Shown piece after piece: positions 10,110 through 30,657 of a DNA stretch of 35,695 nt (position 1 is the first letter of the stretch; the number at the start of each line of letters is the position of its first letter). The DNA is from Deltaproteobacteria bacterium (GTDB lineage Bacteria; Desulfobacterota; Binatia; UTPRO1), in assembly GCA_005879405.1 (NCBI GenBank), contig VBKW01000089.1:1-35695 (forward strand), written 5' to 3'. The notes under the pieces are model-generated. The model searched no databases, had not been told where the DNA came from, and worked only from the letters and a program-made list of their open reading frames with translations. The translations under genes and the position numbers were made by a program.

Positions 10110-10385
10110 TCAGGCGCCACGGCTCTGCTCGGCCGCGATGAAATCGGCGAGCGCATTGATCGACGCGAACGCTTTCTTCCCGACCTCCTCGTCGGGGATG
10201 GCGATGCCGAAATGTTCCTCGATCAGCACGACCAGCTCGAGGGCGTCGATCGAGTCGAGGCCGAGACCGTCGACGAAGATCGGCTGGTCGTCGGCGATGC
10301 CGGCCGGGGCGACGTCTTGCAAACGCAGACCCGTGATCAAGAGCTCTTTCAGCCGGCGCTTCAGATCGTCGGAGTTTGTCGTCAT
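10110..10385 (-). CDS. Acyl carrier protein
   Basis: This 91-residue acyl carrier protein carries the growing chain as a thioester on phosphopantetheine. The attachment serine is S45 in GLDSIDALEL, and acidic helix II (LVVLIEEHFGIAIPDEE) follows as in the family. The ATG overlaps the stop of the reductase gene (ATGA), showing tight coupling. It is the only ACP visible in the cluster, so it probably accepts both the starter from the ligase and the elongation intermediates. Aryl polyene clusters commonly carry two ACPs, so a second could lie beyond the window start. Confidence 0.93.
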   Translation of the reverse strand: MTTNSDDLKRRLKELLITGLRLQDVAPAGIADDQPIFVDGLGLDSIDALELVVLIEEHFGIAIPDEEVGKKAFASINALADFIAAEQSRGA

Positions 10386-11123
10386 CCCATGACCAGCCCG
10401 CCGTCGACGGCGAGCATCGCTCCAGTAATATAGGACGCGGCCGGCGAGGTGAGAAACAGGACGGCGGCGGCGATCTCGTCGGGGCGCCCGGTGCGGCCGA
10501 GCGGAATCTGCGCGGCCATCTCCTCGCGCACGTGCGTCGGCACCGCGTCGAGCATCGGCGTCTCGACGATCCCCGGGCAGACGGCGTTCACCGTGATCCC
10601 GAAGCGCGCCACCTCACGCGCGAGCGAGCGCGTCATGCTGAGAAGACCGCCCTTCGACGCCGCGTAGTTCGCCGCGCCGGTTTTGCCGACGAGCCCCGCC
10701 GGTGAGATGACGTTGACGATCCGGCCCCAGCGCTGCGCGATCATCGGCCTGAGCGCGCGCCGCACGCAGAGAAACGGCCCCGTGAGATTCGTCGCCAGCA
10801 CCTCGTCCCAGGCCTCGTCGGAGAGCATCATCAAGTGCGCGTCCCTTCAGCTCGCCGAAGAGCGCCGCCACCGCTTGCGCGTCGCGCACGTCGGATCGCC
10901 GCACCACGTGCTCGCCGCCGACCTGCGCCAGCGCCGCCGCCGCCGATTCCGCATCGCTCTCCCGCGCAGCCCACGTGACGGTGACCGCCGCGCCCGCCCG
11001 CGCGAACGCCAGCGCGATCGCACGTCCGATCCCGCGCGTACCGCCGGTCACGAGCGCCCGCCGCCCCGCCAGCGCTCGCGTCGAGAAGACGCTCGCGATC
11101 GCGTCCTCAGCCGGCGGTGTCAC
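10382..11123 (-). pseudogene. 3-oxoacyl-ACP reductase (FabG-like SDR) broken by internal deletion and frameshift
   Basis: Two frames together encode one short-chain dehydrogenase that reduces 3-oxoacyl-ACP. The first frame (11123 to about 10846) carries the NADPH motif TGGTRGIG and ends in ALFGELKG. The second frame (about 10846 to 10382) resumes at RDAHLMMLSDEAWDEV and contains NYAASKGG with the catalytic Tyr and Lys. Compared with FabG, about a dozen residues are missing at the join, including the NNAG motif that holds the cofactor and catalytic Asn, so a small deletion changed the frame. It may be a genuine inactivating mutation, a programmed event (unlikely, as residues are absent) or an assembly error. 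The proposed GTG start has GGGAG just upstream; GTG at 11138 is an alternative. Because the operon is otherwise intact, an assembly or culture artefact is quite possible. Confidence 0.82.
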
Positions 11124-23303: not shown

Positions 23304-23783
23304 ATGATCGCGATCGACGCGAAGGCGATGGCGGCGATGCGCGCTCATGCCGAGGAGTCGTTTCCGGAGGAGTGTTGCGGCGCGCTCTTCGCCACCCCGC
23401 ACGGACAAGTCGTGCGGCGGATGACGAACATCCAGAACGCGCTCCATGCCGCCGACCCGGCGACGCATCCGCGCGACGCCCGCACCGCGTACCAGATGGA
23501 TCCACGCGAGCTCTTCGAGGTGAACCGCGACGCCGACCGCCCAGGCTGGCGGGTCCTGATCTTCTACCATTCGCACCCGAGCCACGGCGCCTATTTCTCG
23601 CCGACCGACCGCGCCCGCGCGCTCTGGGGCGAGCCCGATGGCGATCCGGAGCCGTCGTATCCCGGCGTCGCATACGCCGTGCTCTCGGTCTACGAAGGCG
23701 TCGTGCGCGACGTGAAGGCGTATGCGTGGAACGACGCGAGCCGTGACTTCGAGGAGGTCACGCTCGACGTCGCGGGCGCGTAG
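23304..23783 (+). CDS. JAMM/MPN metalloprotease (M67 family)
   Basis: This 159-residue protein is a complete JAB1/MPN/Mov34 zinc protease domain. The catalytic glutamate is E22 or E23 in PEECCGALF, and the metal motif HSHPSHGAYFSPTD supplies H89, H91 and D102. Bacterial members release amino acids or partners from the C-terminal Gly-Gly of ubiquitin-like sulfur carriers; for example Mec acts on CysO-cysteine, and archaeal HvJAMM1 cleaves MoaD-like SAMP conjugates. No ThiS, CysO or MoeB gene is adjacent here, but a MoaD-MoaE fusion with a Gly-Gly-Ser junction lies 6 kb downstream. The ATG start is ten bases after panE; the frame is open upstream within panE only as a shadow. Confidence 0.88.
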   Translation: MIAIDAKAMAAMRAHAEESFPEECCGALFATPHGQVVRRMTNIQNALHAADPATHPRDARTAYQMDPRELFEVNRDADRPGWRVLIFYHSHPSHGAYFSPTDRARALWGEPDGDPEPSYPGVAYAVLSVYEGVVRDVKAYAWNDASRDFEEVTLDVAGA

Positions 23784-29410: not shown

Positions 29411-29917
29411 GTGGCGTCGCATCGTGGAGCGGTTCCCGCCGACCAGATCGGCTGCGCCGTTTTGACCGTCAGCGACACGCGGACCGAGGCGGATGACGAG
29501 AGCGGGCTGCTGATTCGCACCCTTCTCGAAACCGGTGGTCATCCGGTCCCGTTCTACGCAATCGTACCGGACGATCCAGTGGCGATCCGCGCGGGCGTGA
29601 CCGAGATCGTCGAACGCCGCGACGTCCGGGCGCTCGTCGTGACCGGAGGCACGGGAATCGCGCCGCGCGACGTGACCATCGAAAGCATCGGAAGCCTCTG
29701 GACGCGGGAGCTGCCCGGGTTCGGGGAGACCTTCCGCGCCTTGAGCTTCGCGGAGATCGGGCCGCCGGCGCTCCTCAGTCGGGCGACGGCGGGGGTGATC
29801 GCCACGACCTTCGTGGCGGTGCTTCCCGGGTCGAAGGCGGCGTGTCGACTGGCGATGGAGCGGCTCATCCTGCCGGTCCTCGGGCACGCGGTGGCGCTCA
29901 TCGGACCGGAGCGATGA
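29411..29917 (+). CDS. moaB: Molybdenum cofactor biosynthesis protein MoaB/MogA family
   Basis: This 168-residue MPT-binding protein adenylates molybdopterin ahead of molybdate insertion. Family motifs are VLTVSDTRTEADDESG (17-32), LVVTGGTGIAPRDVTIE (76-92) with the TGGTG nucleotide loop, and a late VAVLPGSKAACRLAME. The start is GTG with no clear ribosome site; no better in-frame start precedes the conserved core. Its stop overlaps the next gene's ATG (ATGA), tying it to the molybdopterin synthase gene. Whether it acts as MoaB or MogA cannot be separated by eye. Confidence 0.9.
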   Translation: MASHRGAVPADQIGCAVLTVSDTRTEADDESGLLIRTLLETGGHPVPFYAIVPDDPVAIRAGVTEIVERRDVRALVVTGGTGIAPRDVTIESIGSLWTRELPGFGETFRALSFAEIGPPALLSRATAGVIATTFVAVLPGSKAACRLAMERLILPVLGHAVALIGPER

Positions 29918-30657
29918 CCATTCGGGTCCTCTTTTTCGCCCATTTGCGCGAGCGCTGAGGGCGGGAGGCGCGCGTCGAGATCGCGGAGGGAACGTCGATC
30001 GCCGATCTCTGGACGCAGCTCCGTGCGCAACATCCTGTGCTGCAGGATGCCAGCGTGCGTTTCGCGTTGAATTGCGTCTACGTTGACACGGCGGAAGTGC
30101 TCCATGACAATGACGAGCTCGCGTTGATTCCCCCGGTGAGTGGTGGATCCATGGCGACTGGAGCGCACGACTCGTATCTGATCACCGGCGCAACGATCGA
30201 CGTGGCGGCGGTCCTGGCTGCGGTCACGGATGCGCGCGCCGGGGGCATCGCGCTCTTCGTCGGGACGACCCGTGACGAGAACGACGGCCGTCGCGTCGTG
30301 CGACTCGAGTACGAGGCCTACGAGGACATGGCGATCCGCGAGATGAGAGCGATTGGGGCGGAGATGCGGCAGCGCTGGCCGCTCGTCGCCGTCGCCATGG
30401 TCCATCGGGTCGGTATCGTGCCGCTCGCCGAGGTGAGCGTTGCGATCGCCGTCTCGAGTCCCCACCGCGACGAGGCATTCGCCGCCTGTCGCCATGGCAT
30501 CGATCGCTTGAAAGCGCTCGTGCCGATCTGGAAAAAAGAATATTACGCCGACGGGTCACGGTGGATCGGCGCGTGCCACGCCGATCCATCGCACACACCT
30601 GGGGCGCAGGCATCTGCGCGCCAAGCCGCGGCACACGCACACGAGGGGGCTGGCTGA
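29914..30657 (+). pseudogene. MoaD-MoaE molybdopterin synthase fusion interrupted by in-frame TGA
   Basis: One frame encodes the small and large subunits of molybdopterin synthase. The MoaD part starts MTIRVLFFAHLRER, then meets TGA (29956-29958) as codon 15, continues GREARVEIAEGTS, and ends in the expected PPVSGG (Gly-Gly at 30142-30147). There is no stop after Gly-Gly. The frame runs through Ser and Met into MoaE, with FVGTTRDEN and the active-site VPIWKKEYY lysines. The total is about 247 residues. In M. tuberculosis MoaX the same fusion is cleaved after Gly-Gly. The TGA would abolish MoaD unless read through, but the ATG at 30151, behind a GGTGAG/GGTGG tract, could start MoaE alone. Mutation, sequencing error and recoding are all open; no Sec signal was evident. 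Confidence 0.8.

Follow-up and report, generated by a model that had tools for sequence, protein, structure and literature searches.

The locus studied here raises the question of how an in-frame TGA close to the start of a molybdenum cofactor gene should be read: as selenocysteine, as a reassigned codon, as a tolerated or an old stop, or as a single-base error or mutation. The window analysed is the whole stretch of 35,695 nucleotides (contig VBKW01000089.1). Translation of the window revealed one frame at 29914-30657 (+) which encodes MoaD and then MoaE in 248 codons and is terminated by a TGA at 30655-30657. In this frame (MTIRVLFFAHLRER*GREARVEI...PPVSGGSMATGAHD...VPIWKKEYYADGSRWIG...) codon 15 is also a TGA (29956-29958, forward strand), the sole internal stop. 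The Pfam profiles ThiS (MoaD) and MoaE both matched above their cut-offs, MoaE with 136 bits. In the genome-wide search the ThiS match (63 bits) covered the full profile, positions 1-76, and spanned the TGA. The MoaD-MoaE fusion with a TGA at codon 15 that an earlier note had described was thus confirmed by translation and by both profiles. The MoaD domain (ThiS/MoaD beta-grasp; 29914-30147 (+)) ends in PPVSGG (30130-30147), which places an internal Gly-Gly at the MoaD/MoaE junction. The MoaE domain (30151-30657 (+)) has its own ATG at 30151 directly after the Gly-Gly, preceded by GGTGGA, which may serve as an internal start. On the 5' side, the start of moaD overlaps by ATGA with a MogA/MoaB-like molybdenum cofactor gene (29411-29917 (+)), which was assigned by Pfam MoCF_biosynth and scored below the cut-off of NCBIfam moaB_proteo.

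The same fusion was found in a genome of the same genus, G001 (JACQEO01, a groundwater 'Deltaproteobacteria bacterium' draft). Its gene (L003) is about 70% identical, has Gly-Gly followed by Ser and forms a continuous translatable frame, whereas in the present assembly the frame is broken by the TGA at 29956-29958 and holds MoaD first and both domains together, as in MoaX, only when this codon is read through. A survey of the class gave a match in 138 of the 148 genomes. Many of these, in particular almost every genome of family f9 and a large part of f5, have one uninterrupted frame over both domains, and others, including the sister genus (G003-G005), have two separate genes. Compared with the locus studied here, the sister genus shows the same gene neighbourhood, a Cys at codon 15 and the same Gly-Gly, but its moaD and moaE are separate, overlapping genes and its MoaD ends two residues past the Gly-Gly. 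The earlier note had named separate genes in relatives as an argument against the fusion. Such genes do exist in the sister genus, but since fusions also occur in the same-genus relative and in entire other families, the fusion is genuine, recurrent and of a known kind, with fused and split states alternating within the class.

Codon 15 was then read in 42 distinct relatives and was a sense codon in all of them, mostly for Ala or Leu and in a few cases for Met, Ser or Val. In the four nearest genomes, from the same genus and family, it was always TGC (Cys). Aligned by codons, the gene of the same-genus genome and the present one showed no gap at the site (CGG-TGC-GGG in G001, CGC-TGA-GGG here), so that a frameshift or misassembly at the TGA itself was ruled out; a single C-to-A change separates the TGA from the TGC of the family. 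Differences from the same-genus relative within MoaD fell on codon positions 1, 2 and 3 in the numbers 14, 8 and 40. Because they are mostly at third positions, the conservation of the frame across the TGA is not due to chance, and together with the ThiS match that crosses the stop this bears out the earlier statement that the frame is intact beyond it. The pN/pS values against G001 were 0.141/0.634 for MoaD and 0.158/0.581 for MoaE. MoaD is without sign of relaxed selection and is under constraint equal to that of MoaE.

A UGA opposite a cysteine is the classic appearance of a selenoprotein. Selenocysteine at the UGA in place of the relatives' Cys would account for the TGC found exactly at codon 15 in the four nearest genomes, which is the usual Sec/Cys pattern. 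However, SelA was not found in a search of this genome, which is a draft of 4.49 Mb in 468 contigs and 96% complete. The two matches of the tRNA-Sec model above the cut-off were a tRNA-Leu and a tRNA-Ser, and all of its matches that were sampled were ordinary Leu, Ser, Cys, Trp, Gly, Thr and Tyr tRNAs. An Rfam search gave no selenocysteine RNA element (SECIS) near the TGA, and the RNA downstream of it folds no better than shuffled sequence (z = -0.18). Moreover, most other families have Ala or Leu at codon 15, which indicates that the Cys there is not catalytic. The selenoprotein reading therefore failed on the synthesis machinery, with neither SelA nor a true tRNA-Sec, as well as on the SECIS after the UGA, and is considered exceedingly unlikely. 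The earlier note had come to the same outcome by a different reason, namely that the TGA falls at a variable position and not at a conserved Cys. The position is indeed variable across the class, but within the family it is always Cys in the four genomes, so that the missing machinery, not the position, upholds that judgement.

The one in-frame TGA is also what could be brought forward for a genome-wide reassignment of UGA, which the earlier note had wished to see weighed. Against it, 24 of the 29 complete genes in the window, the moaD-moaE frame included, end in TGA, from which it follows that UGA is not reassigned, and the tRNA-Trp that was found has the normal CCA anticodon. This proposal found no support and has virtually no probability left.

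A stop that is real and fixed could be tolerated if near-cognate tRNA-Cys or tRNA-Trp read through the UGA often enough to supply the small amount of MoaD required. Both tRNAs are present, the frame past the stop is intact and constrained, and the genome has kept molybdoenzymes with no other MoaD found. The genome-wide search gave three ThiS-family genes only, the moaD-moaE frame, ThiS and one CysO/SAMP-like protein, which speaks against rescue by a second MoaD. This CysO/SAMP1-like protein (L032:1405-1770 (+)) ends in GGER, that is, with residues past its Gly-Gly, and its gene adjoins E1-like and cysteine-synthase-like genes. MoaA is present and the molybdopterin oxidoreductase family gave seven matches, none with an internal stop; xanthine-dehydrogenase-type molybdoenzymes were not found in the genome. 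Given MoaA and these seven matches, loss of MoaD should carry a cost. The TGA, however, is common to no relative, the folding of the downstream RNA is not unusual at the z = -0.18 given above, and a frame that has stayed intact would result just as well from an error or a recent mutation. Tolerated read-through is thus regarded as very unlikely. Still a little less credit is given to its stronger form, in which the TGA is real, fixed in the species and works as a leaky stop. The low level of MoaD would then be set by reading through the UGA, for which tRNA-Cys may be responsible, and MoaE would be produced separately from its own start.

The frame could also be a decaying pseudogene of older date, with the fusion out of use, and other genes of this genome are indeed broken. 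This is contradicted by the single lesion in 248 codons, by the equal constraint on MoaD and MoaE and by the retention of what was sampled of the remaining molybdenum cofactor pathway. In addition, the same-genus genome already goes some way towards supplying an intact gene in a close relative at a nonsynonymous divergence that is just as low. An old pseudogene is accordingly judged highly improbable, lower again than read-through in either form. The equal constraint on MoaD and MoaE, the failure to find a second MoaD and the retention of MoaA and of open molybdoenzyme genes together indicate that the stop is either recent or not real.

The broken genes bear on the choice between these two. 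On the same contig, a fabG-like short-chain dehydrogenase gene (10382-11036 (-)) lies in two different frames that meet at about 10843; as estimated from profile coordinates, about 56 nt net are missing there, the NNAG region among them. Internal in-frame stops were sampled genome-wide through two large domain families, ABC and SDR. Among about 100 matches of these, three further conserved domains were broken up and lack about 17, 68 and 61 nt net (likewise profile-coordinate estimates), and the same searches in G001 gave one split, a single-base frameshift. The ABC and SDR genes so broken in the draft (G000) lie on contigs C89, C71 and C38 (L063-L065). A search for plasmid matches was negative. 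Within the ABC and SDR families no further internal in-frame stop was reported for this genome, so that the search for more in-frame TGA codons, which the earlier note had proposed as a check, gave none there, and the TGA does not belong to a general accumulation of stops. The broken genes indicate either that the consensus is imperfect or that genes have really been disrupted, and they make an error more probable a priori.

Taken together, we are confident that the locus is an ordinary fused MoaD-MoaE of the MoaX/DR2607 kind with an isolated one-base stop, which is either a draft error or a fresh mutation. The sense codon in all 42 relatives, the gapless alignment, the unrelaxed MoaD and the other defects of the draft argue for it. 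Against it, those defects are short deletions and not substitutions; they show a poor consensus or real gene decay and do not match the lesion at the TGA. The absence of further internal in-frame stops from the ABC and SDR matches also counts against it. An error in the draft consensus is the probable source of the stop, and a very recent nonsense mutation is a lesser, though real, possibility. The earlier note had listed both for consideration, and the TGA found in none of the 42 relatives favours them.

In the normal state, translation of the fusion would be followed by a cut after the Gly-Gly, whose codons (30142-30147 (+)) are predicted to give the free C-terminus of MoaD, with cleavage before the Ser at 30148. 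The need for this cut, stated in the earlier note, is supported by analogy with MoaX of Mycobacterium tuberculosis, where activity depends on a cut at Gly82-Ser83 (PMC4326299). MoaX too is a single polypeptide with MoaD ahead of MoaE and with Ser directly after an internal Gly-Gly; it differs from the present case, in which codon 15 is broken by the TGA and the cleavage is predicted. The protease that cleaves MoaX was not identified (PMC4326299). In Deinococcus radiodurans the fused MoaD-MoaE (DR2607) was reported to be cut by DRJAMM (DR0402), leaving a C-terminal Gly (PMC8832034), and a role of JAB peptidases in freeing fused MoaD had been proposed earlier (PMC1779556). A JAMM/MPN+ protease accompanies the fusion here as well. 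The gene at 23304-23783 (+), 6 kb upstream of moaD-moaE, encodes a stand-alone JAMM/Prok-JAB metalloprotease which was assigned by profile matches and in which a motif check showed the HxH...S..D motif (HSHPSHGAYFSPTD) to be intact. This protein is desampylase-like and related to haloarchaeal desampylase. By analogy it is the best candidate and the likely Gly-Gly protease. Unlike in the Deinococcus comparison, the JAMM gene lies inside a conserved moaDE neighbourhood, although its activity on the fusion is presumed. This neighbourhood, which the window has in common with G003-G005, consists of JAMM, a hydrolase, a MiaB-like gene, a response regulator, MogA-like, moaD, moaE and a TPR protein, and across the class about 15 genomes have a JAMM gene no more than about 8 kb from moaE. 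As a marker of the fusion the gene is not discriminating, since 134 of the 148 genomes carry it whether fused or split. Once released, the C-terminal tail of MoaD would be converted to a thiocarboxylate by a MoeB-like enzyme and supply MoaE with sulfur. A change of one base has turned the TGC (Cys) of the family into TGA in this assembly. If real, the stop would abolish MoaD, whereas MoaE could still be translated from its own ATG.

Extra residues past the Gly-Gly of MoaD were also observed where the genes are separate. Twelve junctions were compared (L004, L006, L012, L021-L023, L027, L030, L031, L044, L045 and L171), and in 11 of them 1 to 11 residues follow (e.g. GGNQ, GGTQ, GGAR, GGCDV). 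From these sequences, unfused MoaD also seems to need trimming at its C-terminus.

The interrupted gene is of little importance in itself. The case shows how one base can mimic the signature of selenocysteine, UGA versus Cys, in a draft genome, and it extends the record of fused MoaD-MoaE genes over a bacterial class. The extra residues past the Gly-Gly and the presence of JAMM in most genomes, often close by, suggest that MoaD is generally unmasked by proteolysis in this class.
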